In this document: positions 2,432-62,972 of the stretch, piece after piece
Layout: the number at the start of each line of letters is the position of its first letter
Position numbering within the stretch: the first letter of the stretch is position 1
DNA from: a virus
IMG/VR virus record: IMGVR_UViG_3300036820_000014
Location: 1 to 64,000 of that record
Length of the DNA: 64,000 bases
Strand: one strand, 5' to 3'
The notes under the pieces: model-generated
Told to the model about the DNA's origin: nothing
The model's database searches: none
The model's input: only the letters and a program-made list of their open reading frames with translations
Translations under genes and position numbers: made by a program

Positions 2432-2439
2432 CTACGACC

Positions 2440-2986: not shown

Positions 2987-3006
2987 CAGGCGGAATGATA
3001 GATGCG

Positions 3007-3092
3007 CGGAAGGCCGAGGACTTGAACCCCAGGGCTGTGGACCCCAATCCGTTTTCAAGACGGTTCCGGCGCGCCTGTCCGGTTGACCTTCC
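3007..3092 (-). tRNA. tRNA-Ser (anticodon TGA, reads UCA)
   Basis: The reverse strand folds into a full class II tRNA. The acceptor is GGAAGGT/GCCTTCC, the D-stem is CCGG/CCGG, the anticodon loop is CTTGAAA with TGA at the centre, there is a GGG/CCC variable arm, and the T-arm TGGGG-TTCAAGT-CCTCG has the canonical T-loop. The discriminator base is G and the CCA end is not encoded. The long variable arm confirms serine. It lies 2 nt from a second serine tRNA. Confidence 0.9.
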
Positions 3093-3094
3093 AG

Positions 3095-3175
3095 CGGAGG
3101 GCTGAGGTCTCGATCCCCACGGTGACCCGCGAGCTGGTTAGCAACCAGTCCCGTCTCCTCGACGGTTAACCCTCC
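3095..3175 (-). tRNA. tRNA-Ser (anticodon GCT, reads AGC/AGU)
   Basis: Acceptor GGAGGGT/GCCCTCC, D-stem CCGT/ACGG, anticodon loop TTGCTAA with GCT, a short variable arm (GCGG-GTCA-CCGT) and a T-arm TGGGG/CCTCA. The T-loop reads ATCGAGA, so the usual T54 is A, and the length of about 81 nt is short for a serine tRNA. Both points make it slightly degenerate. No CCA is encoded. With the neighbouring TGA tRNA it forms a two-gene serine cluster between portal and terminase genes. Confidence 0.82.
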
Positions 3176-3225
3176 AGGTTCAGGAAGGCGAGGAACTTCG
3201 GGGGACGGTCGGAGATTAGGTCTGG

Positions 3226-3471
3226 TCACCTGCATACCCGAATGGACTCGTCAGTCTTCATCACGCGACGCGCCACCTCCGGAGGAGGACCGAGCGGCTG
3301 GTGTTCCGGGTCCACTGGATCGCACCGCTGCGAAAGATGAAACTCGACTGCGGGTGCTGTCCACACCTCTACTCGGTTGGTGTCGACTGTGATTGCGACC
3401 ACAAGCGTGCACTCATCGATCATGTCAAAAGGGCGAAGATCCGATGCTGGGAGTTCGATGACCTGCGCCAT
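3226..3471 (-). CDS. Hypothetical protein (ASDLRPFDMI type)
   Basis: 81 residues. The N-terminus VIELPASDLRPFDMIDE followed by beta-strand-like VVAITVDTNRVEVWT resembles small phage proteins with a beta-barrel-like fold, but no function is known. It starts 9 nt after the stop of the zinc-ribbon gene and is the last protein gene before the tRNA pair. Confidence 0.55.
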   Translation of the reverse strand: MAQVIELPASDLRPFDMIDECTLVVAITVDTNRVEVWTAPAVEFHLSQRCDPVDPEHQPLGPPPEVARRVMKTDESIRVCR

Positions 3472-3480
3472 TTGAGGGGC

Positions 3481-3627
3481 CTATACCGCCGAAAGGCGCT
3501 CGACCTCATCATCGTTCCAGTCGAACTCGTGGCCACACTCCGAGCACATGAGCATGGGGCATCCCTCGTCGTATTCGAGATGCACGCAATGGTCACAAAG
3601 AGATACTTGAAGACGACGACGGAGCAC
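3481..3627 (-). CDS. Tiny zinc-ribbon protein
   Basis: 48 codons with two CxxC pairs, CDHC near residue 11 and CSEC near residue 28, then an acidic tail ending DWNDDEVERLSAV. This spacing suits one structural zinc site. The GTG start is chosen because it is the first after the preceding gene; a TTG five codons upstream is also possible. It is typical of single-domain zinc ribbons in phage operons. Confidence 0.5.
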   Translation of the reverse strand: MLRRRLQVSLCDHCVHLEYDEGCPMLMCSECGHEFDWNDDEVERLSAV

Positions 3628-3651
3628 CTTGAGGTGGAACAAAACCCGCTG

Positions 3652-3771
3652 TCATGGGGTCGCGGCGTCGGGATCCAGCAGCATCACGGGCACATCGAAG
3701 GCCTTGGCGATCGCTCGCGTAGCACGCCGCCTACGAGATGGTCGCATCGCTTCGGTGGCCTCGGCAGTCAC
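3652..3771 (-). CDS. 39-residue basic hypothetical protein
   Basis: The GTG start overlaps the upstream stop as GTGA, which strongly suggests translational coupling. The peptide has an arginine cluster (MRPSRRRRATRAIAKAF) followed by DVPVMLLDPDA, resembling the end of a small helix-turn-helix or recognition-helix protein. The function is not recognised. Confidence 0.5.
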   Translation of the reverse strand: MTAEATEAMRPSRRRRATRAIAKAFDVPVMLLDPDAATP

Positions 3772-3962
3772 GGGGCCGAGCGTACCGAATGTGTCCAGTG
3801 CTTGTAGAACTCATCGTTGAGGATCCGTTCGATCACGCCATCGGCGCTGGGCTCATCACGACAGCGGACTAGCCGGTAATACACGGGGAGACTGACGCCA
3901 CGTAGGGCCAGCTTCAGCCTGAGTTCGTCATCGGCCAGATCACGCCACTCATCTCGGAGCAC
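3768..3962 (-). CDS. Hypothetical helical protein
   Basis: 64 residues from GTG 3962, or 74 from ATG 3989. The sequence DEWRDLADDELRLKLALRG is amphipathic helix; two further short helices follow. It overlaps the stop of the upstream gene by 14 nt and ends in a GTGA overlap with the next gene. No family is recognised. Confidence 0.5.
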   Translation of the reverse strand: MLRDEWRDLADDELRLKLALRGVSLPVYYRLVRCRDEPSADGVIERILNDEFYKHWTHSVRSAP

Positions 3963-4293
3963 GGAAATGCTCGGCGAGGCCGAAACCATTGCCAGCGTTA
4001 TGGGTGAGATTCGTACGGTCCACCGCTGCCACGGCTTTCCGTCGATCCCCGCCTCGGAGCAACGTCCGCCACTCGTCGACGGCGGCGGCACCGCGACCAG
4101 TCGCGGCACTCAGGGCCTCGGAGCGAGCCATGCTGGCCTGATCCCTGGGCACGCCACCCTTCGACCTCGCACCTCGAACCCGGACGTCAGGTCGCCAGCG
4201 CTTTGGACGTTCGACCGGTGCCGATGTGTCCGGCGTGTCGAGGACCGGGAGCGGAGTGCCGAAGTCGTCATCGTCCAGCTCGAACTCGTCCAT
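3949..4293 (-). CDS. Hypothetical protein downstream of large terminase
   Basis: 114 residues: an acidic N-terminus (MDEFELDDDDFG), a proline/basic middle and a helical C-terminal half. It begins 39 nt after the terminase stop. The short gap holds CTAGAAACTTGAAACTAG, a repeat of GAAACT flanked by CTAG, of unknown role. No Shine-Dalgarno is obvious. Function unknown. Confidence 0.5.
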   Translation of the reverse strand: MDEFELDDDDFGTPLPVLDTPDTSAPVERPKRWRPDVRVRGARSKGGVPRDQASMARSEALSAATGRGAAAVDEWRTLLRGGDRRKAVAAVDRTNLTHNAGNGFGLAEHFRAPR

Positions 4294-4332
4294 ACCGACA
4301 ACCTAGTTTCAAGTTTCTAGTTACTCGTCCCC

Positions 4333-5952
4333 CTAGCCGACGCTGCCAGCTCGGATCTCCCGCTGGGCTGCTCCGGAGCCACGGGCACGCCGGACACGGT
4401 GGATCCGTGACAAGGCCTGTGAGCAGGCGTCCACCATGTCATCGTGGGTCCCCTGGTTGAACGCCGACATCTCCTCAAGGAAAACCGGCACCCAGGGCGC
4501 CCAGCCTGGCAGGTGGACATCGCCCGCTTGGATGTAGCCGGATACCGCGACTAGTCGCGTGAACTTGTCGCCCTTGACGGGCACCGAGATGATGCCGGCG
4601 AGGCCCCTGCGTCGGACCAGATTGACCGAGTGGCGCTCGGGCTTGGTCATCCCAAGCTCGCCAGCCACATCGTCTGAGATTTCGTAGCCGGGCGCCGGCG
4701 TCCGGAGCGACTCCATGACCTCGGGCCCGTAACCGGCCGCCTCCACGAGGTGGAGCCGACAGGCCGGGTATCGGACGACTACGAGCGCCATGGCGTTTGT
4801 GGTGAGCGCCTGGGGCCACTGACCGCGTAGCTGGTCGATCAGCCAGCAGTCCTTGCCGGTGACGCCCCACACCTGGCCGACCGTATAGTCACCCGACTCC
4901 TTGTCCTTCAGCTTCATGTCCCACGAGCTCACGACACGATCGAAGGTGGTGGGCCAGAACGAGTCCTCTACCACCCACCAGTCCCGCTTGATGAGAAGGC
5001 CCTCTGGCGGACTTGGGCGCTGCTGCTCAAGCGCGGAGGCGAGGTACTCGCCCAGGGCTGCCGCTCGAGCCAACACCTCCTCCCGGTTGAAACGTTCGGG
5101 CTCGAGCAACTCGCCGGGTCGACGGCCTAGCGGGTCCGGCAGGCGCAGGATGGGGTCGACGGCGAGCGGGTCCGGAGCCTCGGCGATAGCTGGGAGGCGG
5201 ACGACGGTCCACTTGTCGGCGTGCTCGATCTCGGACGACTGACGGAGCCGGGCTTGGAAATCGTTCTCGTGCCACCTGGTGCCGGCTGAGATCTTCGGGG
5301 CATCGAAGCGCTGCAGACGGAGGCGGCACTGGGAGCGGTAGACATTCCATACTGACTCTCGCTGAGCCGCTGAGTGCGCCGCCTGCCAGCCTTTGATCAG
5401 GTCGTCCAGGAGTAGGACGTCTTGAGGAAAGCCGGTGATGGCTCCGCCGATGCCGACGCAATAGAGCCCGCCGCCCTCCGACGTCGTCCACTTCCCTCGA
5501 GCTCGCTGGTCGGGGCGAAGGCGGAATCGCAGCTTCGAGGCGTACCTCTCGGCGATGTCTCGGGCCTTGCCTCCCTCGTCGACCGCCTTGTCCGCGTCGT
5601 ACGAGACGTACATGATCCGTGTCTTCGGGCTCCGATCGAGGATCCACAGTGCGCCCCACATGATGAGCGTGGTTTTCCCGAGCTGAGATGGCAACCACCA
5701 TTCCTGGTTCGGGTCCTCGCCATTTACGGACTCGGCGAACTTGCGACCGAGCAGCTTGATGTAGGGCCAGAGCTTGTACTCGCCATCGGTCAGGTGGTGA
5801 GCGAAGGTGGCCGGGTTGGCTCGCCAGGGTGTGTCGTCTTCGAGCGCCTTGTCGACCGCTTTTCGTTCAGCCGGCGTGAGCTTCTGGAGAATCCGGGCGC
5901 GCTTCGGAGACGGGAGATCGATCAGCCATTCGACATCGATCGCCTGGGTCAC
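4333..5952 (-). CDS. terL: Terminase large subunit
   Basis: 539 residues from the GTG that overlaps the upstream stop (GTGA). It is the ATP-driven motor and nuclease that cuts and packages phage DNA through the portal. The N-terminal ATPase has a variant Walker A (LPSQLGKTT, about residues 87-95) and Walker B (DVLLLDD, about 180). The C-terminal RNase H-like nuclease shows the first acidic strand VSSWDMKLKD (about 345) and a late acidic motif around DDMVDAC (about 515). An upstream ATG at 6024 exists but would overlap the previous gene by 76 nt. The putative small subunit lies about 6.6 kb upstream, an unusually long separation. Confidence 0.92.
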   Translation of the reverse strand: MTQAIDVEWLIDLPSPKRARILQKLTPAERKAVDKALEDDTPWRANPATFAHHLTDGEYKLWPYIKLLGRKFAESVNGEDPNQEWWLPSQLGKTTLIMWGALWILDRSPKTRIMYVSYDADKAVDEGGKARDIAERYASKLRFRLRPDQRARGKWTTSEGGGLYCVGIGGAITGFPQDVLLLDDLIKGWQAAHSAAQRESVWNVYRSQCRLRLQRFDAPKISAGTRWHENDFQARLRQSSEIEHADKWTVVRLPAIAEAPDPLAVDPILRLPDPLGRRPGELLEPERFNREEVLARAAALGEYLASALEQQRPSPPEGLLIKRDWWVVEDSFWPTTFDRVVSSWDMKLKDKESGDYTVGQVWGVTGKDCWLIDQLRGQWPQALTTNAMALVVVRYPACRLHLVEAAGYGPEVMESLRTPAPGYEISDDVAGELGMTKPERHSVNLVRRRGLAGIISVPVKGDKFTRLVAVSGYIQAGDVHLPGWAPWVPVFLEEMSAFNQGTHDDMVDACSQALSRIHRVRRARGSGAAQREIRAGSVG

Positions 5953-6089
5953 TCCCAGTGCTCGTCGTGAAGTAACCCGATCCGGAGTCCGATTCGCTCG
6001 ACCCAGCAGAGAACGCAGAGCCAAGGATTATGCGCTTTGTCCCATCTCCAATGAGTGGGGCTGTTCTGAATGTAGATACCGCGCTTCAC
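5949..6089 (-). CDS. Tiny CxxC protein upstream of terL
   Basis: 46 codons between two GTGA overlaps, so it is translationally coupled on both sides. It contains a single CVLC pair within a Trp-rich segment (WRWDKAHNPWLCVLCW), perhaps a half zinc site. Function unknown. Confidence 0.5.
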   Translation of the reverse strand: MKRGIYIQNSPTHWRWDKAHNPWLCVLCWVERIGLRIGLLHDEHWE

Positions 6090-6295
6090 GGCATCCTCGG
6101 TCCGGCACCCGACGGCCTGGGCATGTTCGTCAGCTCGGGCCCGCATTCAGCCATGAGCCGATCGGCTCGTTGATACCTGATGCACTTCTCACCACAACGG
6201 CGGCAACGCTTGGTCATCGTGTGCCAGGTGTGATTTCTGTAGCGCCATCCGGATCCGATCCATGTGGTCTGGAACCGGTGGATGTGGAACCTCAC
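6086..6295 (-). CDS. Small Cys-containing basic protein
   Basis: 69 residues with CRRCGEKC near the middle, flanked by basic residues and preceded by several His residues, consistent with a small zinc site. The end overlaps the next gene by GTGA. The start GTG at 6295 overlaps a stop at 6292, but that stop belongs to a different frame from the gene I call next upstream. Function unknown. Confidence 0.45.
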   Translation of the reverse strand: MRFHIHRFQTTWIGSGWRYRNHTWHTMTKRCRRCGEKCIRYQRADRLMAECGPELTNMPRPSGAGPRMP

Positions 6296-6341
6296 GGCGA
6301 CAAGCTACGACCAACGGGCACGCCGGTGCTGGGCTTACCCG

Positions 6342-6590
6342 CTATGCCAGCTCCGACGTAGACGGTACTGAGGCCGTTCGCATCGTCGGAATGCCTCCGA
6401 CGTCGGTCAGTGTTCGCCAGGTCGATCGCTTGTGACGGTCGACTCCCGATCCGGATCGCAGTCCATCGATCCGTCGCCGACCATAGCCCTCTCGAATAGT
6501 TGGCAGGCGTCCGTCGTCGTTCCATCGAGCAAACCTCGGGGGTCGCTCTGCCTGATCCCAGTGCTTACAGTCGCGGCACAAGGGATTCAC
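6342..6590 (-). CDS. Hypothetical protein with CxxCKHW motif
   Basis: 82 residues starting at a GTG that overlaps the upstream stop (GTGA). The N-terminus NPLCRDCKHWDQAE is a common small-phage zinc motif. The second half looks less protein-like, and a competing frame (6292..6525) ends in a GTGA overlap with the next gene. A frameshift between the two is possible. Confidence 0.45.
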   Translation of the reverse strand: MNPLCRDCKHWDQAERPPRFARWNDDGRLPTIREGYGRRRIDGLRSGSGVDRHKRSTWRTLTDVGGIPTMRTASVPSTSELA

Positions 6591-7081
6591 AACTCGCCCC
6601 GCTCGACACTATCGAAGGTGTTGAAGAAACTCCCATGGGAGTGCCGATCGCCGTTGCCCACCGTGACTACCTGGGACTCGCTGTTGATGTTCAACATGTC
6701 GATCGAGTGCCCGCATGGGCCCAGAGAGAACTCACGCGCTCGAGGAAAGCCCGGTGTGATTAACCTAATCGTTTCCGCCCTGATCCCCCGTTCTCGCACC
6801 GTGGTAGCTGGCTCGTGACACGTCGGACAGTCGAGATCCTTGACCGTCAGGAACTCCCGAGGCTCGTGGACACCGTCCAGCTCATCGAGGACGGCCTGAA
6901 GCTCGACCAAGATCGGGTGGGAGAATCGTCCTGGGAGTTGCTCCTGCTCCAGGAGCTCACGCACTCGGCGGGCTGTCTGCACAACCGAGGCGATCTTCTG
7001 GTACTGGCTGGGGAACAAGTCGTCGTATATCGCTTGATCTAGAACCCCGCCGATAAGTTTCATGTCCAGCGGCTCGGTCAC
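6587..7081 (-). CDS. Hypothetical protein, helical N-terminus plus zinc site
   Basis: 164 residues. An amphipathic helical half (SQYQKIASVVQTARRVRELL) is followed by CPTC near residue 85 and CGHS near residue 122, which could bind one zinc. Both ends use overlaps (GTGA at the start and at the end), so it sits inside a tight operon. No family is recognised. Confidence 0.6.
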   Translation of the reverse strand: MTEPLDMKLIGGVLDQAIYDDLFPSQYQKIASVVQTARRVRELLEQEQLPGRFSHPILVELQAVLDELDGVHEPREFLTVKDLDCPTCHEPATTVRERGIRAETIRLITPGFPRAREFSLGPCGHSIDMLNINSESQVVTVGNGDRHSHGSFFNTFDSVERGEL

Positions 7082-7449
7082 CCTTCCCCCGTCTCAACCC
7101 TGTTTTGGAACAAGAGCACCCGCTGTGTGACGAGGTGACTCAACTCGTCTGGGAAGCCTGAATCAGCCGACGGTTTTGGATCTCGTAACCTGATCGTTCC
7201 CTCGCTCATAACCCTGAAGGACGGGAATGTGGTGGTCTTCACCGTCCTAGCACTGCCGTCTGGGTGAGGATCGATACGGGCGATCAGAGCGCCCTCTTGC
7301 GTCCAATACTCGGTGACCTCCCGGATGATGTTGTCCGCCAAACCGGTCCCGACGCAGTGAACGATCACGATCACCTCTTGGATCTGCGCGTTCCTAAGAC
7401 GCCCGCTCTCGAAGTCCGACTCGAATGTGGCACCCAAGTCCCGTCTCAT
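7078..7449 (-). CDS. Hypothetical protein
   Basis: 123 residues starting at an ATG that overlaps the upstream stop (ATGA). It appears to be an alpha/beta protein with strands around QEVIVIVHCVG and GALIARIDPHPDGS. The frame extends further upstream, but overlap evidence favours this start. Function unknown. Confidence 0.5.
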   Translation of the reverse strand: MRRDLGATFESDFESGRLRNAQIQEVIVIVHCVGTGLADNIIREVTEYWTQEGALIARIDPHPDGSARTVKTTTFPSFRVMSEGTIRLRDPKPSADSGFPDELSHLVTQRVLLFQNRVETGEG

Positions 7450-7811
7450 GTCGAAGCCTGGGCATCGGTGCTCGACCGGGTGCCGACCATGTTGTGAGGC
7501 CGGCCCTGGCTGACCCTCCACCCGGCACGTCTCCACACTTTCGGACACGGCACGCGAGCATCCCTCCACCCGATGCAGATGGCGCGAGTCGAACGGCTGG
7601 TCCGCTTCCGTGAGCAGCGGATCTGGTAGCCGCCCGCTTCCCAGTGAAAGGCGTCGAGCTCACGGCCACCATTCGGTCGGTCGATGTCGACCATGTCGCA
7701 GATGATGCGCGCCGGGTCGATGAGCGGGTGAGCTTCGCTGACGGTCCGAGCGTCCCAGGTGATGATCAGCTTGCCGAGGATCAGGTGTCGACCGTTCAAT
7801 TCGTGAATCAT
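7446..7811 (-). CDS. Hypothetical protein (beta-rich N-terminus)
   Basis: 121 residues. The ATG is preceded by a good Shine-Dalgarno (AAGGAAAG) and overlaps the upstream stop as ATGA. The first half, HLILGKLIITWDARTV, looks protein-like; the basic, Trp-rich end is less convincing, so the real protein might be shorter. No family is recognised. Confidence 0.5.
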   Translation of the reverse strand: MIHELNGRHLILGKLIITWDARTVSEAHPLIDPARIICDMVDIDRPNGGRELDAFHWEAGGYQIRCSRKRTSRSTRAICIGWRDARVPCPKVWRRAGWRVSQGRPHNMVGTRSSTDAQAST

Positions 7812-21493: not shown

Positions 21494-22582
21494 TCAGATC
21501 GGCTCCGCACCCAGCCCTCCGACACATCCAGGAGACAACCAAGCCCGCTCTCGGCCTCGGTTGGCTGAATTCCTTGTCTCTCCGGATGAGTTGCCCATCG
21601 CTCGACGAGCTCGCCACCACACGGTCCGCCAACCCGGCAAGTCAAAATCCTCGTTGTATCCCGCCACCACGATCCTCATCCCAGGAAGTGCTTCATTCTC
21701 TCGGCACCAACCCTGGATGGCATCGTGAAGATCATCGTCGACCTCGTGCGCATAAACCTCGGATCGCTCATTGAGCCGGTATGGGGGATCGAGGAATACG
21801 CCCATGCTGTTGGCACCACTCATCGCTCCCGTCGTAACGATGCGTGACCAGTTCCCCGACGCACATCGGACGCTTCGCAGACGGGCCGACAGATGACCGA
21901 ACCAGTCTTGGAGGTCTTCGTAGCTCCGCACTGTTGACTTACTGGCGTTCTGGGCATTGACCCGAGGGATGTGCCGGGTGACACCCTGGGCGCTCGTCAT
22001 GTGAGGCCGTTTGCGATCGACCCCATTGGCTTCACTGATGCGAGGGATTTGCTTTCTAAATCCTTTCGCCTCAGAGCGCCGACTCTTTTGGACTCGTCCA
22101 TCGACTACGCGCCACGGGCCAGTTCCGGAACACCAACCTGAGCCAATCCAATTCGATAGGCCCCACGCCCACCACCCGGCGATCTTTGCATCGCAGTAGT
22201 CCGGGTCGGCCTCGAGTCGGCTGGCTAACTCCGAGCCGTGGTTAACCAACCAGAGATGTCGTGCGGTGAGGTCCAGCTCGTGGACGTGGCTGTCGGCCCA
22301 GCGAGCGACCTCATCGGGGTCGGACTTGATCGCGCGCCAGAAGTTGGCGACATATCCATCCTTGTCATTAACCAATTCCCGACGTCGAGCACATTCTTGG
22401 ATCTCGAGCGGTCGCCTGAGCAGGACCGCCAGTGATCCGCCAAATGGCTCTGCGAAGACGTCCGGATTGCCGAGAGCCCTCCACACAAGAGGAGCGAGTT
22501 GGCTCTTTCCGCCGAAGTAGGGAAAGGGTGCCGCCAGCCGAGGGTCTATTGCTTCAGCCACTCGGTCCCACACTTCGGGCAC
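21494..22582 (-). CDS. DNA adenine methylase (D12/Dam class)
   Basis: 362 residues at most. Motifs of the D12 N6-adenine family are clear: FPYFGGKSQLAPLV (about 20-33), VFAEPFGGSLAVLL (about 41-54), the helical motif with NDKDGYVANFWRAI, and catalytic DPPY (in GVFLDPPYRL, about 267). The C-terminus (after RAMGNSSGETRN) is unlike the family. The start is one of three in-frame GTG codons overlapping the ParB-like gene by 16-37 nt. It probably protects phage DNA from host restriction. Confidence 0.86.
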   Translation of the reverse strand: MPEVWDRVAEAIDPRLAAPFPYFGGKSQLAPLVWRALGNPDVFAEPFGGSLAVLLRRPLEIQECARRRELVNDKDGYVANFWRAIKSDPDEVARWADSHVHELDLTARHLWLVNHGSELASRLEADPDYCDAKIAGWWAWGLSNWIGSGWCSGTGPWRVVDGRVQKSRRSEAKGFRKQIPRISEANGVDRKRPHMTSAQGVTRHIPRVNAQNASKSTVRSYEDLQDWFGHLSARLRSVRCASGNWSRIVTTGAMSGANSMGVFLDPPYRLNERSEVYAHEVDDDLHDAIQGWCRENEALPGMRIVVAGYNEDFDLPGWRTVWWRARRAMGNSSGETRNSANRGRERAWLSPGCVGGLGAEPI

Positions 22583-23148
22583 TGGAGCGTCTCGGGCTCC
22601 TTGCGCGCATCGAAGCTGACTCGCTCGGTCTGAGCCGAGTCCTCAGCCTGGATCGAATCGAGGATCGCTCCGACGTCGACCTGGTCGAATCCGATTCCTT
22701 CAAGCGAGCCGGCGTTCGCGTGGGTCTCGATGATGGCGGTCAGGTTCGGGACGTGCCATCCGCCTAACTCCACAAGTCGGTTGACCCCGACGAGCATGGC
22801 CCGTGCCTCGTCGTCATCGATGGAGGACCAGCCCTCGTAGACCGGAGCCATCCAGACTCCGTCCTCGTCTATCACGATCCCCTCAGGTAAGTCTTCGGCA
22901 GAGTCCGCCATCTCGGCCAGTAGCGCATCCGTGCGGCCGTGGCCTTCGGCTATCAGACCCGTGCGTCCGTCGATGACGATGGGAGAGATGAAGCCGAAGC
23001 GTCGGATCGATGCTCGAATCTCTGCGTCAGCGTGGAGCTTCGGGTTGTCCGGATTCGGCGGGAGGTCCGTGATCCGCCTATAGCCGAGGCTCCTGGGCGA
23101 GATCACCGCGTCGGGGACGGCCGCGTCGGGAGTTGCAAGATCTGTCAC
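22546..23148 (-). CDS. ParB-like protein with C-terminal zinc site
   Basis: 200 residues from GTG 23148. The ParB/sulfiredoxin core reads ITDLPPNPDNPKLH then FGFISPIVIDGRTGLIAEGHGRTDALL (about 60-86). The C-terminus ends ALQCPKCGTEWLKQ-like, with one CxxC. In phages such ParB-like proteins often sit beside DNA methylases, as here with the adenine methylase just downstream. Possible role in recognising the modification target. Confidence 0.78.
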   Translation of the reverse strand: MTDLATPDAAVPDAVISPRSLGYRRITDLPPNPDNPKLHADAEIRASIRRFGFISPIVIDGRTGLIAEGHGRTDALLAEMADSAEDLPEGIVIDEDGVWMAPVYEGWSSIDDDEARAMLVGVNRLVELGGWHVPNLTAIIETHANAGSLEGIGFDQVDVGAILDSIQAEDSAQTERVSFDARKEPETLQCPKCGTEWLKQ

Positions 23149-23158
23149 TGGCCGGATG

Positions 23159-23533
23159 TTACGGCCGGGCGAGCCATCCCGCTTCTCTTGCTTCGATCGG
23201 ATGCTGGTTATGGATCCAGTCATGGCACTCGAGGCAGATGTGCAAGAGGTTGGTCAGGAGATTCTTGCCCCCGTCAGAGACGGGAAGGACGTGATGGCGG
23301 TGCTCGCCCCAGTAGTGGCACTTGGCCGAGACGAGGATCTCGCACACACCGTGCGACCTCTCGAGCAACGCCGGCGTGATGGCGTCCAACTCGTCGAGGA
23401 AGGCCCGTTTCTCCGGACTGATCCGACGCAGCCCTTTCCGACGCGGCCGAAGCGGAGCGCGCTTTAAGCGGGTTTCCGAACGCTTCATCTCGGTCCGTTT
23501 CATCTGAACCGGATGCCGGCTTTCACCGCTCAT
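23159..23533 (-). CDS. HNH endonuclease
   Basis: 124 residues. HNH core: HRHHVLPVSDGGKNLLTNLLH (the first H and N/H residues) with the zinc pairs C-x-n-C (CEILVSAKC, about 64) and ICLECHDWIHNQH (about 98). The N-terminal 40 residues are strongly basic, useful for DNA binding. The ATG overlaps the upstream stop by 11 nt. It may act in packaging or as a homing enzyme. Confidence 0.85.
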   Translation of the reverse strand: MSGESRHPVQMKRTEMKRSETRLKRAPLRPRRKGLRRISPEKRAFLDELDAITPALLERSHGVCEILVSAKCHYWGEHRHHVLPVSDGGKNLLTNLLHICLECHDWIHNQHPIEAREAGWLARP

Positions 23534-24497: not shown

Positions 24498-24926
24498 TCA
24501 CCATCGTCGTCGTTCAGGGTCATCTTCCTCGCCGACTGGGTCGACCCCTACCAACCTGAACTGGCCTTTCGCTTCTTGCGTATCGCGCTCGCGCTTGTCT
24601 GCCACCTTGCCAACCATCTTGTCGAGCCGCGTGCCGGTGTCTTTGCGATCATCGATCATCACGATCACCGCATCAAACTCCTCGATCTGATGTATTCCAA
24701 GCAGCAAGCCGTCCTCTTTCGAGTAGACGTTGGCATAGCTGGTCTTGCGCTGGCGGATCCGCATCAGACAGTCCTCGTAGCCGTCTGTCTGGAAGACGTG
24801 CGGTGCTATGTCCACCGAGTCCTCCAGCCCGTTGCCCGTCTTCTTGATGACGATCGACTGGCCGAGAATCGGTAGCCCGTTGTGCTCGCCGAGGTCGTTG
24901 TCTTCGTCAGTGTTTGCCACGGTCAT
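24498..24926 (-). CDS. Hypothetical replication-region protein
   Basis: 142 residues from an ATG preceded by AGAGAGGAACC. Middle part: GQSIVIKKTGNGLEDSVDIA and FDAVIVMIDDRKDTG; the ends are acidic. It does not match a family I know. It sits beside the methyltransferase genes and may be a DNA-binding adaptor. Confidence 0.5.
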   Translation of the reverse strand: MTVANTDEDNDLGEHNGLPILGQSIVIKKTGNGLEDSVDIAPHVFQTDGYEDCLMRIRQRKTSYANVYSKEDGLLLGIHQIEEFDAVIVMIDDRKDTGTRLDKMVGKVADKRERDTQEAKGQFRLVGVDPVGEEDDPERRRW

Positions 24927-26644
24927 TTGGTTCCTCTCTGTTGTTGGATCATGCGTCGGCCTATCCACTCTGCGACCGGAACGCAAACGGCATTGCCGAG
25001 CGTGCGGTATCGAGCTGAGTCGTTCAGAGTCGAGGTCCAGTCATCGGGGAATCCCTGGAGTCGTTCCACCTCCAGGGGCGTTAATCGTCGGACAGCGAGA
25101 CTCCCCTGTGCTGATTCGTTTTCACCGCTCGTGGATCGCCCCACCGCTTGAACCTCTGATAATGCTTGTCGCACAGGCCCAAGCCCTTCTGAGGCTTGCC
25201 ACATACCGTGCAAAGTGCACGTCCGCAATGCTCCTTCATGTGACAGGAACGACAAATACGTATCAAGTTGGTCGGCGAGTTGTTCAGGTGGTCGCCGTCC
25301 CGGTGGTGGACGTCCCTCGCTGAGGATCTCCCGCACTTCGAGCATGGTCCCGGTGGACAGATGGCCCGCGCTCGTCTGTGCGTTGTGGACCAGTTCGGGG
25401 TCTTGCTCAGGTATCGCCCAGTGAACCCCATCGCCATGCACTTCTGATGGCAGAACTTCCGGCGTTCGAAGTGGAACAAGGACTCCAAGACACCATTCGA
25501 CAAACGCTTCCTCTCCAACCTCTTCCCGCAGGACTCGCAGTACCGCTCCGGATCTGGCTTCCTCGGCATCGGCACGCGAATCACTGTAACCACCGGGTGA
25601 GGCTAGGACAGCAGTCGCGGTCCTAGCCGTGTGCCCGATCGCATCGAGGGTGTCGGTGCGGTCAGTCTCTTCCCATCGCTCGCAATCATCGGAGTCATGC
25701 GCCCGTTGCGCCTTGCGGTAGGCCACGACACGAACGCCTCGCTCGGTCGTCTTTGCTCCGTCGGTAGCCGAGATGGTCGGTGCCAGGTCGGTCGGAGTGG
25801 CCACCAGATCGGCTCCTTGCCCTGACTCTGGGTAGATCGAGAAGGCGACCAGGTGATGGGGTTCTTTTGCCTCATGGGCCGCAATTGGCGCGATCTGCTC
25901 CACCTCGTCCCACCATTCGTGGCCCGTCTCGGACGACACCGATACGCGCTCGTGCACGGCTACTCGGGCGCTGATGGCTGCTCCAGATTGGCCGACTGCT
26001 CCAGCGCTTGCCGCAAGCGTCCCGGCAACTCGCGACCCCGTCTCCCTGCTCGGCGGAGAATCCCCATCGCAGCTCTCGGGCTCAAAAAGTACCGAGAGTG
26101 CACCGGCTCTGTCTCCAAGACATCCGACAATGAAGACACGGCGGCGGCGCTGGGCCACTCCGAAGAATTGAGCGTCAAGCACCCGGTAGGCCCACCCATA
26201 CCCGAGTTCGGCCAGGGTTCCGAGAACCGTTGCCATGTCAGCTCCAGGACAGCATCCGGCACACTCGGCGTCATCGCATCCGGTGGGCTTGTGGCCCGAC
26301 GAAAGCAGTCCAGGGACGTTCTCGATGAGAACCCAACGGGGAGCAAGCGCCTCACTGACACGTACGAACTCGGTGAAAAGTCCGGATCGCTCGCCAGCCA
26401 GTCCCTTACGACGTCCAGCCACACTGACGTCTTGGCACGGGAATCCTCCGCAGAGAACATCGACTCTTGGGGCATCGGGACCTATCTCTTTCACATCATC
26501 GAAGCGGAGCATCTCCGGCCAGTGGAACTCCAGAACTTTGCGCGCGTCGGGATCGATCTCGCACTGCCAGGCACACGTCATCCCCGCTCGTTCGAGCCCC
26601 AGTCCTATGCCTTCGATCCCACTGAAGAGGGAACCGAATCTCAC
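24923..26644 (-). CDS. C5-cytosine DNA methyltransferase interrupted by an HNH frame
   Basis: 573 codons. The C5-methylase motifs appear in order: I (MRFGSLFSGIEGIGLG), IV with the catalytic Cys in GGFPCQDVSVAG (about 72), VI (LIENVPGLLSS), VIII (AQRRRRVFIVG), IX (RRLTPLEVERLQGFPDDW) and X (YRTLGNAV). Between VIII and IX lies about 170 codons unlike a target-recognition domain; this segment overlaps a second frame that encodes an HNH nuclease. Without it the enzyme would be about 400 residues, normal for phage members. Whether the long frame makes active enzyme, or the insert is removed as an intron, is not known. Confidence 0.85.
   Translation of the reverse strand: MRFGSLFSGIEGIGLGLERAGMTCAWQCEIDPDARKVLEFHWPEMLRFDDVKEIGPDAPRVDVLCGGFPCQDVSVAGRRKGLAGERSGLFTEFVRVSEALAPRWVLIENVPGLLSSGHKPTGCDDAECAGCCPGADMATVLGTLAELGYGWAYRVLDAQFFGVAQRRRRVFIVGCLGDRAGALSVLFEPESCDGDSPPSRETGSRVAGTLAASAGAVGQSGAAISARVAVHERVSVSSETGHEWWDEVEQIAPIAAHEAKEPHHLVAFSIYPESGQGADLVATPTDLAPTISATDGAKTTERGVRVVAYRKAQRAHDSDDCERWEETDRTDTLDAIGHTARTATAVLASPGGYSDSRADAEEARSGAVLRVLREEVGEEAFVEWCLGVLVPLRTPEVLPSEVHGDGVHWAIPEQDPELVHNAQTSAGHLSTGTMLEVREILSEGRPPPGRRPPEQLADQLDTYLSFLSHEGALRTCTLHGMWQASEGLGPVRQALSEVQAVGRSTSGENESAQGSLAVRRLTPLEVERLQGFPDDWTSTLNDSARYRTLGNAVCVPVAEWIGRRMIQQQRGTK
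25081..25569 (-). CDS. HNH endonuclease nested out of frame in the methyltransferase gene
   Basis: 162 residues from ATG 25569. It begins with basic sequence and CESCGKRLERKRL, has a second Cys pair (CHQKC, about 40), then the HNH core CSKCGRSSARDVHHRDGDHLNN and RICRSCHMKEH (about 75-112), and ends with CTVCGKPQKG and CDKHYQRF. The frame differs from that of the host methylase and its stop falls within the codons of motif IX (RRLTP). This is the layout of a homing-type endonuclease inserted in a conserved gene. Confidence 0.8.
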   Translation of the reverse strand: MPRKPDPERYCESCGKRLERKRLSNGVLESLFHFERRKFCHQKCMAMGFTGRYLSKTPNWSTTHRRARAICPPGPCSKCGRSSARDVHHRDGDHLNNSPTNLIRICRSCHMKEHCGRALCTVCGKPQKGLGLCDKHYQRFKRWGDPRAVKTNQHRGVSLSDD

Positions 26645-26874
26645 GCGTGGGCCCTGCCCCTGCAGGTGGCGAAGTGAGCGAAGCGACGTGGGCCTTCATG
26701 GACCTCGTCCTTTTTCAGGATCCTCACCATTGGCACATCGGAGTCTGGATCGATCATCACGACCTTGGCCTTGTCGCCTTTGTCTGGCCACGGGTTGACG
26801 GGCATGCGCTTGCCCTTCTCAGTCACACACCACACGATCGCCACGCCGCAACGATTGCATTTGGTTGTCTTCAC
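26641..26874 (-). CDS. Zinc-ribbon protein
   Basis: 77 residues. MKTTKCNRCGVAIVW, then KRMPVNPWPDK and a late CRGRAH, a one-site zinc fold found beside many phage replication genes. The end overlaps the methyltransferase GTG (GTGA). Function unknown. Confidence 0.65.
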   Translation of the reverse strand: MKTTKCNRCGVAIVWCVTEKGKRMPVNPWPDKGDKAKVVMIDPDSDVPMVRILKKDEVHEGPRRFAHFATCRGRAHA

Positions 26875-28193
26875 GCCGTCTCCTCCTCTACGCCACGTCC
26901 TAACTCGAGCAACCGGCCTGCGGGAGACGCTGGCGTCGTGTCCTCGACAGACAGGAACATCCCAACCCGCTCGCGTGCCAGGTCGGCGTTCCGCCCATCG
27001 ATGTCAATCCCCACGGCGGTACGACCGTGACCAGTGGCCACCATGAGCGTCGTGCCACTGCCGGCGAATGGATCCAAGACGCACCCAGGGCGGTAGTCGT
27101 CGTGAGAGCAGGCTGTCCAACCGAGGGTGGTGGCGACTCGGTCCATGGTTGGCTTTCCAGCTGCACCCGTTCCGTTCGTGCGTCCATCGGGTTCTTTCAG
27201 GTCACGTCGCTGCCCAGTGGTCCCACCTGACCCGCGGACGTAAGAGACATCGACCATCCGCCTCGACGGCTCCCCACACACCCGACAAACACGTTCCGGG
27301 CACATCGACTTGATAAAGGGCACACACAGGTCGGCCGGCCAGGTCGCATAGTGCGATCCCTTGTAGGGCGATGTCGGGATCACCAGGTAGGACGGGAACT
27401 CCTGGTCTTCGTCCATCTCGATCCAGTCGAGGGGTGGCGCGCCCGCCTCGTTGATCGGTGAATTGCGAAATCGCTCTCCCTTGTCGTTCAGCGACACGTC
27501 CTTGCGCTCGTGGCGGTTGTCATCGGGGAACTTGTGCGGCGTCCGCACCGCGTCCTGGTCGTAGTAACGCGTCCGGCTCTTGCACGCCACGGTCAGATAG
27601 CTCGTAGCGGGTCTGAACTTGTCCCCCAGCGCGCCGACGGGTGGGTTCGGACGATTCCACGCCACCAGATTCCTGATGCGCCAGGGGTCGATGGTGCGCT
27701 CTGGACGGAGCAGGTTGCGCCCGTAGGCGAGCGACCAGGCGAAGAGGGTGGGGATGCCGGTGAGGGACTTGTCAAGGGGCCAGCCGAGGCGAGCCTTCGT
27801 CATTCGCCCCGGGCCCGTGCGCTCCATCGTGGACTCGACGCGGCGGGCATAGGCGCTGCCCGTGAACGCGGGCTGAGCGGCTCGCAGGCCGTTGTCGGTG
27901 TAGTCCCCGCCCGCCCCGCCGCTTCCGCTGTAGGTGTCGCCGAGCTCGAACACCAGCGAACCGTGCGGCGCGAGCACGCGGTCACAGGCCTCCACCACGT
28001 CGAGCAAGTCGTCGAGGAAGCCAGCCGGCGTCGGCTCCGATCCGATCTCCTTGGATTTCTCGGGATGATCGGGTGGTAGGTAACTCCGCAGAGCAAGAAA
28101 CGGAGGAGAACTCAGTATCAGGTCGACGGATTCGTCTGGCAACGAAGCCAGGCCATCGAGGACGTCGCCGACGATGAACCGCGCGGTGCTCAC
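26871..28193 (-). CDS. DNA methyltransferase, beta class (N4-cytosine or N6-adenine)
   Basis: 440 residues. Motif IV comes first, VDLILSSPPFLALRSYL (about 22-38), and motif I late, VLDPFAGSGTTLMVA (about 367-381), which is the beta order. SPPF favours N4-cytosine but N6-adenine is possible. CRVCGEP (about 303) adds a zinc-like site. Start is GTG, coupled by GTGA to the HerA-like gene. It is one of three DNA-modifying enzymes in this operon. Confidence 0.85.
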   Translation of the reverse strand: MSTARFIVGDVLDGLASLPDESVDLILSSPPFLALRSYLPPDHPEKSKEIGSEPTPAGFLDDLLDVVEACDRVLAPHGSLVFELGDTYSGSGGAGGDYTDNGLRAAQPAFTGSAYARRVESTMERTGPGRMTKARLGWPLDKSLTGIPTLFAWSLAYGRNLLRPERTIDPWRIRNLVAWNRPNPPVGALGDKFRPATSYLTVACKSRTRYYDQDAVRTPHKFPDDNRHERKDVSLNDKGERFRNSPINEAGAPPLDWIEMDEDQEFPSYLVIPTSPYKGSHYATWPADLCVPFIKSMCPERVCRVCGEPSRRMVDVSYVRGSGGTTGQRRDLKEPDGRTNGTGAAGKPTMDRVATTLGWTACSHDDYRPGCVLDPFAGSGTTLMVATGHGRTAVGIDIDGRNADLARERVGMFLSVEDTTPASPAGRLLELGRGVEEETA

Positions 28194-29971
28194 CCAGCAT
28201 CCAAGAACAAGACATCGCAGGCCACCACATAGCCCTTGTCGGGATAGTCGATGAGACCCAGGGTCCTCAGACGGCCGAGGATGTTTCCGAAGGTGCCTCC
28301 GATATTGGGTCCGACCGAGTACCCCGCGATCTCGCCGGCGTGCTGCTTGGTGAGTGCGTCAGGGTAGGCCGCGATGATCCCCGAGAGCACCCGGCCTTCC
28401 GGATCGGTGAGCTTAGAGAGGACCTCACCCTGCAACCCCTCGCTCGTGCGCTCGATGTCCGGCGCGACAGCGAGATGGCGCCCCTCGTCCGTGAGCCGCA
28501 CCCGTCCGGATACCGGATAGTCGAGGAGCCCAGCGCCTCGAAGCTGACCCAGGAGATTGCCGAACGTGCCGCCCACACTCTTTCCGACCCGATAGCCGGC
28601 GATGAAACCCGTCTGGATCTTCGTGGGTTGATCGAACCCGACCTCGCGGAGCCAGGCGAGGGCATCCAAGATCCTGTGCTGCGGCTTGGTGAGGTTGTAG
28701 AGGTCGGTACCGGAGACGGGCTTAGGCGCTCTGACGGAGTCGTGGTCAGAGCCGTGGCGCACCGATTCGCCGCGCGCCTTGGCGGGAGTGGCCACGCGCT
28801 GGTTGAGTTTGCGCTCGAACTCGATCACATTGCCGCGCTGAGTCGTCTCCCATCTCAGTCGCTCCTGGACCTCGCCGAGTAACCCGCTCCAAGGCTCAAG
28901 CGCTTCTTCGAGCCGGATGACAAGCGATTCATCGATGACTGGAACCTCTATGCGCTCGATGATGCGCTCGGGCTCGGGTAGGACGATCGTTCCAGCCTTG
29001 ACCAACTCGGCTGTGAGCTCGGCGATGCGGCGCTTGAGCTCCTTCGGGTCATCGGCCTTGGCGCGCTCGATCGTGTCGGCCATCTGTTCCTTGATCGCAG
29101 CCAGGTCGACGTCGGCCAGCTTCACTGGCGGACGAGTGGCCTTCCTGCCGACGAGTGGCGTCGCACCCGAGTCGAAGGTACGCCGCCGGCGGAAGCGGAC
29201 CCGATCGATCGCCTTCAGCCAGCTCGGCGAGATTACGAAGGACTCTCCGTCGTCCAGCGTCGGCAGCTCGCGGACGAGGTCGGCACCGCTCGCGTGGTAG
29301 TCACACCATCCGAGGATCTTCTTGCGGTCAGGAGGCCCGGTCGTCCGCATGGCAAAGAGCGTGCCCACCTGAGTGAGCACGTCGTTGTTGAGCGATGCTG
29401 ACCGTTGGGTTATTAGCGTGGCTCCGATGCCTCGGAATCGGCCACGCTTGACGATCTGCTCAAACGCTCCGACGACCTCGGCCGCTTCGCCTCGGACCAT
29501 CTGAGGGATGTACTCGTCGGCCTCTTCGCAGAACAGGTGAAGCGGTTCGCGGTTGAACCGGTAGAGCCGCTTGGCGAAGTCCCGGAGGAACCGGCGCTGG
29601 TCGGCTCTCGTCATCTCCGACACATCGAGCACGCACGTGAGACGGTGCTCTACGACAAGATCGGCGATGAGGTTGCCAGATGACGGCTCGAGCGGGACGT
29701 CGCCGTGCAGGCCGCCGAACACGACGATCGACAGGCCAGCCCCAGAGCCATCGCCCGATGACCTGAGGCCCCACCAATCACCCTTCGGATCCACCGCCAC
29801 CCAGGGAAGCTCATGGTCGTACATCTCCTCAGCGAGGACAGCGGCGGCGTTCGACTTGCCGGCACCTTTCACCGCCAAGATCCCGAAGGTCTCGGTCACT
29901 CCTTGCAGCGGGATCTTGAACGTCGCGCCAGCTTCGGACTTACCGAGATGGAGGTACTGGTCCCTACTCAC
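28190..29971 (-). CDS. HerA-like ATPase with two C-terminal winged-helix domains
   Basis: 593 residues. The N-terminal HerA/FtsK-type ATPase has Walker A VKGAGKSN (34-41), GDWWG (about 64), Walker B LHLFCEEADEY (about 144-154), sensor-like TLITQRSASLNND and an Arg-containing PPDRKKI. A coiled-coil linker (about 290-390) leads to two similar winged-helix repeats: LTKPQHRILDAL... (about 427-505) and LTDPEGRVLSG... (521-593), which share IGGTFGNILGRLR-like sequence. Likely a hexameric DNA motor. No NurA partner is seen; the VRR-NUC at 20506 is one candidate. Confidence 0.85.
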   Translation of the reverse strand: MSRDQYLHLGKSEAGATFKIPLQGVTETFGILAVKGAGKSNAAAVLAEEMYDHELPWVAVDPKGDWWGLRSSGDGSGAGLSIVVFGGLHGDVPLEPSSGNLIADLVVEHRLTCVLDVSEMTRADQRRFLRDFAKRLYRFNREPLHLFCEEADEYIPQMVRGEAAEVVGAFEQIVKRGRFRGIGATLITQRSASLNNDVLTQVGTLFAMRTTGPPDRKKILGWCDYHASGADLVRELPTLDDGESFVISPSWLKAIDRVRFRRRRTFDSGATPLVGRKATRPPVKLADVDLAAIKEQMADTIERAKADDPKELKRRIAELTAELVKAGTIVLPEPERIIERIEVPVIDESLVIRLEEALEPWSGLLGEVQERLRWETTQRGNVIEFERKLNQRVATPAKARGESVRHGSDHDSVRAPKPVSGTDLYNLTKPQHRILDALAWLREVGFDQPTKIQTGFIAGYRVGKSVGGTFGNLLGQLRGAGLLDYPVSGRVRLTDEGRHLAVAPDIERTSEGLQGEVLSKLTDPEGRVLSGIIAAYPDALTKQHAGEIAGYSVGPNIGGTFGNILGRLRTLGLIDYPDKGYVVACDVLFLDAG

Positions 29972-30237
29972 TTGCGTCTCCCCTTCGGTTGGCTAGCCGC
30001 CTGGCACCGCGGGTGCGTGCAGATGGCCTTGTCGTGGTCGATCTTCATATGGCCACCTGACCAGTAGTCCCAGTCCCCCGGCTTGCATATCTGGCACGGT
30101 CGTTCGAATGCATAGCCACGACCGTCTGTGGTCCGGACGGTTCCGACCGGGATCTCATCAGTCCCACCGCACTCGGGACACGGCCCGGGCGGATCCATGC
30201 CCGAGGTGAGGATGAGCGGCGCTCCGTCGTCGGTCAC
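29968..30237 (-). CDS. Zinc-ribbon protein
   Basis: 89 residues. CPECGGTDEIP (about 20) and CQICKPGDW (about 48) make a zinc ribbon; ICTHPRCQAAS adds a further Cys/His pair; the tail is basic. It is coupled by GTGA to both neighbours in the replication operon. Function unknown. Confidence 0.65.
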   Translation of the reverse strand: MTDDGAPLILTSGMDPPGPCPECGGTDEIPVGTVRTTDGRGYAFERPCQICKPGDWDYWSGGHMKIDHDKAICTHPRCQAASQPKGRRK

Positions 30238-30788
30238 GGTGCCCTTCCCAGCGCCAGGAACTCGTCAGCTCGCCCTAGAGCCCCACACTTGTCGAGATAG
30301 GTCGCCAGGGCTGGTGGAACCGTCTGGCCCGCCACGCGGTGCCTCGCCGAGCTGGACCCGTAGACCTTGGCGAACTGGCCGCGCAGGACACCGGGCTCGG
30401 TCGAGTTACAAATCTCCTCCCAGCCGAGAGCGGACACGGCCGAGGCGATAGCCGGGTGCGACCACTCAGGAGTGGCGTACCGACCGACCGAGCGGACCTT
30501 GTCGAGCATCTCGGTCATGGCCTCGTCGACATCGGGGATCCTCGGCGCATCGATTGCCATCGCTTGGATGCTTTGAGCCTGCTCGCGTACCTTGCCCGGC
30601 GCCGGTGGGAACTCACGGTAGGCCAGGCTGGCAAGAGCGGCCTGGACCAGGTCGGCGTCGAGATCCCCGAGCACGTCGCGCCAGACCTTGAGCCGGACCT
30701 CCTGGAGGAACTGATGTTCCGGAATCCGGAAGGCGGTCCAGGTCTCCTCGCACCAGAGCCACGCGAGTTGGATCTCGCCGTCGGTCAC
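30234..30788 (-). CDS. Putative helicase loader / replisome protein
   Basis: 184 residues from a GTG in a GTGA overlap. The N-terminal part (LVQAALASLAYREFPPAPGKVREQ, about 40-62) has the FPPAPGxV pattern seen in phage proteins that recruit the replicative helicase; the rest is helical. Its position directly after the replication initiator supports this role. Confidence 0.6.
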   Translation of the reverse strand: MTDGEIQLAWLWCEETWTAFRIPEHQFLQEVRLKVWRDVLGDLDADLVQAALASLAYREFPPAPGKVREQAQSIQAMAIDAPRIPDVDEAMTEMLDKVRSVGRYATPEWSHPAIASAVSALGWEEICNSTEPGVLRGQFAKVYGSSSARHRVAGQTVPPALATYLDKCGALGRADEFLALGRAP

Positions 30789-31531
30789 CGTGCCTCCTCG
30801 GGTCGGTATCGAGACACCAGGCGATCGGCGACGCCAGAGGCACCCGAGGTGCCGCTGCGGGGTCGAGCCTTCGAGATGGCTGTCTGGAGGCCAGCCACGG
30901 TCCACGTGATGTCGCCCGCCTTGATCGCCCGCTCGACATCGGGGACGGAGCGACCTTTGCGAAGAGCGCGCTCGATGAGTTTCATCACAGCAGGGAACAC
31001 GTTGCCGTTCGCTCGGGCGAGGTCGGGCTTCTCGGGCTGCTCGAAAGCAAGGATGGTGAGCCGGTGAGCTGCACGCGTCAGAGGGTCATCGGTTGGCTTT
31101 GCCGCCGCGCCGTTAGGCGCAAGAGTTGGGTTGCTTGGGTTGTCTTTGGTTAGTAACAGTGCGTTGTCACCGTTGTCACCCTTTACGGTCGCCGTTGTCA
31201 CCCTTTCGCGCTCCTCATGTCCCCCTTTAGCCTCCCCCGAAAGGGTGACAGATTGTCCCGCTTTAGGACGGAGCAACCGGTACTCCGGAGTCCTTCCACG
31301 TCCGGTCGTCGAGGACAGCGCTTCGAGGTAGCCAGTTTCCACGAGGGCAGCCAATGTGCGAGTCACCGTCCGCTCCGAGCACCGGGCCTTGCGGGCCAGG
31401 TCCGCCCGTTTCAGCCAGAGGCGGTTGTCGTTCATGTCGTTCGCCACGTCGGCGAGGGCCAGGTGAACGACGAGCATGTCACCGGAGCACGGTGAGTGAT
31501 CGAAGACCCAGCCGACAGCGGACGCGCTCAT
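30785..31531 (-). CDS. Replication initiation protein with winged helix
   Basis: 248 residues from the ATG behind GGGAGGTCC; the longer frame upstream is not used. The N-terminal HTH (LALADVANDMNDNRLWLKRADLARKARCSERTVTRTLAALV) with TGYLEAL is a HTH_36-type domain like those of phage replication initiators. A low-complexity linker and a helical C-terminal domain follow (RAAHRLTILAFEQPEKPDLA). The next gene is the putative loader. Confidence 0.72.
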   Translation of the reverse strand: MSASAVGWVFDHSPCSGDMLVVHLALADVANDMNDNRLWLKRADLARKARCSERTVTRTLAALVETGYLEALSSTTGRGRTPEYRLLRPKAGQSVTLSGEAKGGHEERERVTTATVKGDNGDNALLLTKDNPSNPTLAPNGAAAKPTDDPLTRAAHRLTILAFEQPEKPDLARANGNVFPAVMKLIERALRKGRSVPDVERAIKAGDITWTVAGLQTAISKARPRSGTSGASGVADRLVSRYRPEEAR

Positions 31532-31643
31532 GCCATTGGACCTCCCGTCTCCGACACACCGACTCGGTGACGGTACCTGCAAGACCCGGGTGCTTCCAGA
31601 GGTGTAACCGGTGGAAATGTTGCGGGCGACGTGTGGAAAACAC

Positions 31644-31922
31644 CTAGACATCCAGGGGAAGAGGGGGGACAAACTCGACGAATCCCAGGCGGGAGGCGAT
31701 CTGGAGCGGTTGGGTCGGGTGCCGGTCGAAAAAACCTCTACAGACGGCGTTGTCTTTCCCGAGCGTTGAGTGACAGATGATGGCCGACTCGTTCGCCTTG
31801 GCATCGCTGACCATCTCGGCGAGCCGACCAGGGTTGAGGTGCATCAGGTTCCCAGGCCGGAATACACAAGTTGCACACAATTGTGCACAAACGTGGACAC
31901 GTCCGTGCCGGTAGGCGTTCAC
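31644..31922 (-). CDS. Cys-rich phage protein (CATCVFRPGN family)
   Basis: 92 residues from a GTG in a GTGA overlap. CATCVFRPGNLMHLNPGRL (about 16-34) and AIICHSTLGKDNAVCRGFF (about 47-65) are the fingerprint of a common small actinophage protein, probably metal binding. It ends the early recombination operon. Function unknown. Confidence 0.68.
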   Translation of the reverse strand: MNAYRHGRVHVCAQLCATCVFRPGNLMHLNPGRLAEMVSDAKANESAIICHSTLGKDNAVCRGFFDRHPTQPLQIASRLGFVEFVPPLPLDV

Positions 31923-62959: not shown

Positions 62960-62972
62960 GGCCTGGATTCTG

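Follow-up and report, generated by a model that had tools for sequence, protein, structure and literature searches.

The first 64 kb (64,000 nucleotides, here called the window) of the 78,258-base IMG/VR virus record IMGVR_UViG_3300036820_000014 encode an ATPase with a HerA-type motor core, a coiled coil, and two C-terminal winged helices (wH1 and wH2). Comparison with its relatives revealed that the recognition helices of wH1 and wH2 are closely matched within each protein, and that the key recognition residue has switched about 50 to 60 times, nearly always in both winged helices together. On balance we lean towards an element-specific double-stranded DNA (dsDNA) translocase directed by a twin reader as the mechanism as a whole.

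Matched recognition helices that change together

The gene and its two winged helices are located in the window as follows (aa, amino acids; ORF, open reading frame).

28190..29971, minus strand: HerA/FtsK-type ATPase with coiled coil and twin winged helices (ORF of 593 aa, GTG start; Pfam, AlphaFold2, and fold comparison)
28469..28693, minus strand: winged helix 1 (wH1), aa 427-501 (AlphaFold2 models)
28547..28573, minus strand: recognition helix of wH1, GGTFGNLLG, aa 467-475 (model helix 469-479; matched columns)
28202..28411, minus strand: winged helix 2 (wH2), aa 521-590 (AlphaFold2 models)
28274..28300, minus strand: recognition helix of wH2, GGTFGNILG, aa 558-566 (8 of 9 residues as in wH1)

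With a family profile from a 12-sequence alignment (A1), relatives were found encoded in 275 of 325 candidate stretches of viral contigs (80 kept) and in 71 of 232 stretches of genome contigs, the last of these being distant HerA proteins; 140 sequences, including that of the window, scored at least 300 or were the query itself. Five members without both winged helices (L035, L038, L051, L054, and L058) were dropped, and the remaining 135 were reduced to 87 non-redundant proteins at a core identity below 70%, L047 being retained despite its misaligned wH1. The wH1 and wH2 of all 135 proteins were placed in one alignment, and identity statistics were calculated on the 87.

Over nine recognition-helix columns, wH1 and wH2 of the same protein were 0.876 identical (n = 87), compared with 0.333 when partners were randomly re-paired (2,000 permutations, highest value 0.423) and 0.394 when the nearest motor relative supplied the partner (core identity on average 0.62). 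The protein's own partner matched better than that of the nearest motor relative in 84 cases, equally well in 2, and worse in 1. The remaining winged-helix columns were 0.290 identical within a protein versus 0.238 at random, and in the scaffold columns the two winged helices of one protein were as unlike each other as those of different proteins. At column 72, wH1 and wH2 agreed at 0.89 within a protein and 0.11 between proteins, while columns 68-70, 73, and 76 agreed at 0.94 to 0.99 versus 0.27 to 0.56. Agreement within proteins also exceeded that between proteins where helices 1 and 2 begin, immediately ahead of the recognition helix, and in the wing; the starts of these helices, the recognition helix, and the wing form the usual DNA-contact face of winged helices. 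Despite this internal agreement, 78 distinct wH1 helix strings occurred among the 87 proteins. In the window protein itself, wH1 and wH2 had the same residue in 8 of the 9 columns of the recognition helix, in 18 of the 22 "face" columns, and in 15 of the remaining 51, and compared with L085 both winged helices showed the same replacements (G to S, T to N, and G to S) in the same three face columns.

Parsimony counts, which are rough on trees of short sequences, differed strongly between columns. On the motor-core tree, column 72 required 61 changes in wH1, 60 in wH2, and 62 for the two jointly, and columns 68, 69, 70, 73, 74, and 76 behaved likewise, whereas scaffold column 25 required 31, 49, and jointly 61 changes and scaffold column 85 required 36, 37, and jointly 57. 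On a tree of the winged-helix scaffold, the corresponding counts for column 72 were 53, 49, and 53; moreover, when set against their nearest scaffold relative, 76 of the 87 proteins matched themselves better, 8 equally, and 3 worse. Matched helix residues used the same codon in 354 of 676 cases (0.524, with 0.436 expected from the codon usage of each gene), and over the wider face in 645 of 1,307 (0.493, with 0.435 expected). Gene conversion is therefore unlikely to be the main cause of the matching, since 48% of the matched residues are encoded by different codons.

The identity of the recognition helices between proteins stayed flat at 0.31 to 0.38 as core identity climbed from 0.3 to 0.8, and two proteins that are 70% identical over aa 1-374 (L106 and L094) have reader parts that cannot be aligned, each with a matched pair of its own. 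Thus, readers turn over on conserved motors, through recombination or very fast change. The reading faces of the two winged helices are under joint selection, their predicted role is DNA binding, and both very probably read the same DNA half-site.

Domain architecture and occurrence of the ATPase

Features of the motor and of the region that joins it to the winged helices are given below.

29147..29971, minus strand: motor core, aa 1-275, with ∼35 residues before the P-loop (AlphaFold2 model, fold comparison)
29852..29866, minus strand: Walker A, GAGKS, aa 36-40 (G38 and K39 invariant in 83 sequences)
29516..29542, minus strand: Walker B with catalytic Glu, LHLFCEEAD, aa 144-152 (E150 invariant in 83 sequences)
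28799..29104, minus strand: two long helices (coiled-coil region), aa 290-327 and 348-391 (DSSP on the model)
28706..28801, minus strand: low-confidence (disordered) linker, aa 391-422 (predicted local distance difference test score [pLDDT] below 50)

Alignment A2 comprises 83 of the 87 references (L047, L056, L062, and L070 left out); a further alignment, A4, comprises 78 of 82 (L047, L056, L070, and L115 left out). GAGKS, LHLFCEEAD, and TQR (aa 188-190, R190 being invariant in the 83 sequences) correspond to the Walker A, Walker B/catalytic Glu, and QR motifs, and with these motifs and its core fold the protein shows the characters of the FtsK-HerA superfamily. Pfam DUF87 (E = 1e-7) and HerA_C (E = 2.8e-6) matched above their curated cut-offs, the top PDB sequence matches were HerA proteins, and the predicted core superposed on HerA (8xau; Z = 30.3 over 248 residues, model residues 2-269), resembling the VirB4, TrwB, and FtsK motors less closely. 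The N-terminal HAS barrel (∼100 residues in HerA) is missing from the model, because only ∼35 residues precede the P-loop and the alignment with HerA starts near its residue 110 to 150 (model residue 2 aligns with HerA residues 109-157). The HerA equivalog of NCBIfam, NF040819, was not reached (62 bits against a cut-off of 970), PF01580 (FtsK_SpoIIIE) gave no match up to E = 1, and no membrane anchor was found, the highest Kyte-Doolittle mean over 19 residues being 1.12.

AlphaFold2, run with 78 sequences, modelled the full protein at pLDDT 88.3, and the C-terminal 171 residues modelled alone reached 93.5 with unchanged helices. The structure search of this C-terminal part yielded general winged-helix matches only, namely, to MarR/DtxR-type domains (Z ∼10 over ∼70 residues; best Foldseek E = 0.028). 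The initial annotation, made from the sequence alone, had described complete Walker motifs in an FtsK/HerA-like motor followed by a coiled coil and two similar terminal winged helices, and the models and profile matches agree with it in each of these points.

Members of the family are carried by viral contigs, by plasmids of actinobacteria, and by bacterial contigs, and they share the whole domain order and the matched winged-helix pair. Near relatives (50 to 52% identity over almost the full length) were found in four viral contigs, and a full-length relative is present in MW202482 from a phage collection, where it is annotated "hera helicase." Full-length relatives are also encoded by a handful of actinobacterial plasmids; in 10 of 163 plasmid records, at least 80% of the query was covered at a single place. 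No description of this family was found in the open literature, most subscription journals lying outside that search.

Genomic setting

The tailed phage carries the ATPase gene in an early operon for DNA metabolism, as had been proposed. Genes for RecT-like, Gam-like, exonuclease, O-like initiator, and P-like loader proteins are located upstream on the same strand, and genes for an N6/N4 and a C5 methylase downstream; the ATPase ORF overlaps both adjoining genes (29968-30237 upstream and 26871-28193 downstream) by 4 bases. Of the neighbours named in the initial annotation, the replication and methylase genes were recovered, while the upstream "zinc ribbon" proved to be a weak match (Pfam E = 0.0055, under the cut-off).

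26871..28193, minus strand: N6/N4 DNA methylase, next gene downstream (PF01555, E = 1.3e-20)
4333..6024, minus strand: large terminase subunit (TerL) of the phage (phrog_38, E = 1.5e-80)

A portal gene is also present in the window, and portal and terminase are found at the left end of the record (window 350-6024). Other genes of this phage include glycosyltransferase-like genes (61079-63094) and a further methylase-type module in which a ParB-like protein overlaps a Dam-like methylase gene (21494-23223, minus strand). Two frames are nested in the open C5 methylase gene (24923-26644, minus strand): an HNH-endonuclease-like ORF in another frame of the same strand (25081-25593, minus strand; PHROG 1271, E = 1.1e-11; Pfam HNH_3, E = 0.0012) and a second frame at 25960-26475 with a methyltransferase PHROG match (E = 9e-7).

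Neighbouring genes were clustered within the fetched flanks of 86 loci plus the window (6,362 ORFs). The clusters found, out of 87 loci, were DUF5131 (17), C5 methylase (13), ParB (11), N6/N4 methylase (10), ASCH (9), HNH (8), HTH_36/O-like (7), DUF4326 (7), and TerL (6); bigger clusters consisted of shadow frames of the ATPase gene, and no universal neighbour emerged. The initial annotation had held that its view would fall if the homologues were uniformly packaging motors or unrelated NTPases without conserved neighbours; a universal neighbour is indeed lacking in the 87 loci, but the homologues fall into neither of these two classes, and the gene is, as that annotation held, more than routine. 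ParB-like members lie within 200 bases of the ATPase gene in five loci (L016, L119, L056, L014, and L022), which may hint at segregation, though not as a general rule.

In Mycolicibacterium, the ATPase gene of L046 stands among genes for a DUF2201-type VWA protein, an AAA protein, DUF4236, and a C5 methylase, and that of L050 lies 2.5 kb from a phage-type integrase. According to a genus survey, contig BCTA01000038.1 may be an actinomycete integrative and conjugative element with an "FtsK-like DNA translocase" (PMC8190616); the RefSeq copy of this contig holds L046.

Repeats and the search for a DNA site

Spaced pairs of 6- and 7-mers common to recognition-helix groups were only GC-rich, mostly period-3 words. 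One candidate, GCTCACGCTCAC in L109 and L116, was rejected as a site, being found at non-corresponding places and absent from the group members L091 and L127. When contigs sharing the reader of the window protein were sought, a single one turned up, and it was already known.

Iterated 9- and 7-mers formed striking arrays in several loci and were detected in 40 of 135 loci versus 5 after shuffling, a shuffle that ignores coding bias. Most of the arrays inspected fell in replication-initiator-like or low-complexity ORFs and are for this reason no evidence for the ATPase; the initiator calls for L017, L022, L030, L064, and L111 are a reading of the translations, and an O-like profile overlapped the array only in L147. 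Repeats were not enriched beside the ATPase gene, including the 250 bases before it, and arrays of period 10 or 11 near the gene were single cases. Several arrays are described here in their own right. The O-like initiator gene of the window (30785-31804, minus strand) contains, at 31162-31250, a pair of direct repeats similar to GTTGTCACCCTTT and one copy in inverted orientation, CGAAAGGGTGACA; these resemble origin iterons of the lambda-O type, and an initiator-like ORF of L030 contains repeats of the AAAGGGTGAC type. The array of L111 (∼5560-7460) is located immediately upstream of its ATPase gene and flanks a coding stretch. It is built from a conserved element of 10 bases, in which GAGCGAGCCA takes turns with copies resembling GAGCGCACCA, with ∼8 variable bases between elements; 25 exact copies of GAGCGAGCC are spaced 36 bases apart. 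In L148, more than 10 copies of ATACTGGC occur on both strands just upstream of the ATPase gene (6893-7490), one pair being a direct tandem.

In the DNA of the linker before wH1, direct repeats were detected in 5 of 87 loci (last 150 bases; p ≤ 0.01, codon shuffling), against ∼0.8 per position elsewhere; the raw repeat peak is larger because linker DNA is of low complexity. The units recurred nowhere else in those loci, save single stray copies and the separate L111 array, and are suggestive only as a site. A 10-base tandem repeat, ATGAAATCCC, is located in the linker DNA of L145 (9122-9181).

Proposed function and rival explanations

HerA-type rings move duplex DNA, as is established for HerA and its relatives. 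In the addressed translocase towards which we lean, the motor domains would form a ring, probably a hexamer, and the twin reader would bring this ring to a single cis-acting address in phage or plasmid DNA. The two winged helices, having the same DNA-reading face, would bind two copies of one half-site, so that the address would be a duplicated half-site of the element itself. By this binding, the reader would load and probably orient the ring, which would then translocate on the element's own dsDNA early in phage life, serving replication, segregation, or transfer-like processing.

Several points weigh against this mechanism. No cis-site for the twin reader was found among shared words, iterated repeats, arrays, and linker DNA, and winged helices can also bind proteins or serve only in autoregulation. 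The slight excess of identical codons (0.524 versus 0.436) may leave room for some gene conversion or shared codon context. In addition, PHROG 2666, annotated as a terminase, matches the core at E = 5.8e-16.

Among the rival explanations, a motor of the replication origin or fork, that is, a ring loaded at the phage origin and acting with the O-like and P-like proteins as an extra helicase or fork remodeller, is unlikely. The gene order in the window (O-like initiator at 30785-31804, P-like loader at 30234-30905, then the ATPase) and the iteron-like repeats inside the O-like gene would suit it, but O-like genes were clustered near only 7 of 87 members, an array overlapped such an ORF in one, and motors of the HerA/FtsK type track duplex DNA.

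We consider it quite unlikely that the protein is a weapon of competition, the reader recognizing a sequence of a rival phage, plasmid, or host, the motor stripping or disabling that DNA, and an arms race driving the diversity. Fast joint change of specificity, exchange of readers, and a distant similarity to the HerA of defence systems and to mad8 of MADS could be understood in this way. On the other side, the protein, which mobile elements themselves carry, matched neither a nuclease nor any other effector domain in Pfam, and NurA (PF09376) was present in none of the 50 viral records that carry a non-redundant member, records that may be fragments, whereas 7 of 14 control genomes were positive.

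The initial annotation favoured a restriction-like or anti-restriction pair of the ATPase with its neighbouring methylase, an explanation that now appears very improbable. The methylase gene overlaps that of the ATPase in the window, and the two methylase clusters noted above recur near other members; in L102, L133, L021, L145, L026, L116, and the window, no more than 600 bases separate the ATPase from a C5 or N6/N4 methylase. In the 50 records, PF01555 was found in 12, PF00145 in 13, and either family in 17; the other 33 had neither and, though many are fragments, include several of 57 to 189 kb. With methylases in just 17 of the 50 records and NurA in none, therefore, no restriction-like pair is conserved, and a conserved ATPase-methylase system was rejected.

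Equally improbable in our estimate is transcriptional autoregulation by the winged-helix pair with an unrelated task for the ATPase: the closest folds are those of MarR/DtxR-type repressors, but the window gene stands inside an operon with 4-base overlaps and no upstream gap, and the 250 bases before it showed no enrichment of repeats. A genome-packaging motor, to which the terminase annotation of PHROG 2666 and the core fold shared with archaeal B204 packaging NTPases might point, was rejected as barely credible because the phage has its own TerL and portal, TerL being found in 27 of the 50 records (three families searched: PF03354 in 11, phrog_2 in 8, and phrog_38 in 9), and the gene is also carried by plasmids without virion genes in the stretches shown.

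More broadly, and tentatively, phages and plasmids could share a class of soluble addressed DNA pumps, in which a conserved HerA-type motor carries cassette-like twin readers, identical in their faces and switched together dozens of times, so that each element keeps a private address under incompatibility-like selection. If so, this would be a self-recognition system for the movement of phage DNA, and its natural winged-helix pairs, in which each protein states its specificity twice, could be used to read the recognition code. The large natural family offers many motors with different, internally matched readers, and the exchange of readers points to natural boundaries between domains at which motors with chosen addresses could be built in laboratory strains. 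Joint evolution of the two winged helices would probably surprise specialists and makes both function and recognition code testable. If the addressed-motor reading is right, it also raises the new question of why a tailed phage with a normal terminase would need an addressed DNA pump early in infection.

Comparison with known systems

Addressed motors are known (FtsK with the FtsK-orienting polar sequences, KOPS, and TraB with clt), each with one reader and in few studied cases. FtsK belongs to the same motor superfamily, and its C-terminal winged helix (gamma) reads a short motif and loads the ring at one side of it, which sets loading place and direction (PMC2680272). It is membrane anchored, with one winged helix per chain and a fixed motif, whereas the window ATPase has no membrane segment and twin winged helices whose predicted specificity varies between elements. 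Streptomyces TraB, a single-protein hexameric dsDNA translocase of mobile elements, resembles the proposed translocase and locates the element-specific clt by its C-terminal recognition part (PMC5365140, PMC3218068), but it is of the FtsK type, in contrast to the soluble HerA-type core with two matched winged helices.

TdtA, the hexameric HerA-family ATPase of the Thermus mobile element ICETh1, also has a gene for an N4/N6 methylase downstream; it differs in having a NurA-like nuclease upstream and belongs to a set searched with HAS-barrel motifs, and the description of TdtA in that report mentions no winged helix (PMC5365140). The HerA proteins of NurA-HerA repair and of Sir2-HerA and DUF4297-HerA defence share the motor fold (Z = 24 to 30); the window ATPase has neither HAS barrel nor effector partner and possesses a coiled coil and twin winged helices instead. 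The mad8 protein of MADS (PADLOC PDLC04140; E = 2.1e-7, nearly the whole profile aligned) is a core-only HerA-like ATPase, its profile of 314 positions stopping near the end of the core, without the winged-helix pair. TraN of pIP501 resembles the reader, with two winged-helix motifs per chain on two operator half-sites next to the origin of transfer, oriT; it is a regulator of 122 residues without a motor, and the residues of its two motifs are unlike (R23, N24, and Q28 versus H82 and R86) (PMC10877727). Thus, the combination of a motor with a winged-helix address is already known, and what is new is the soluble HerA core without a barrel, the twin matched readers, and their dozens of joint switches.

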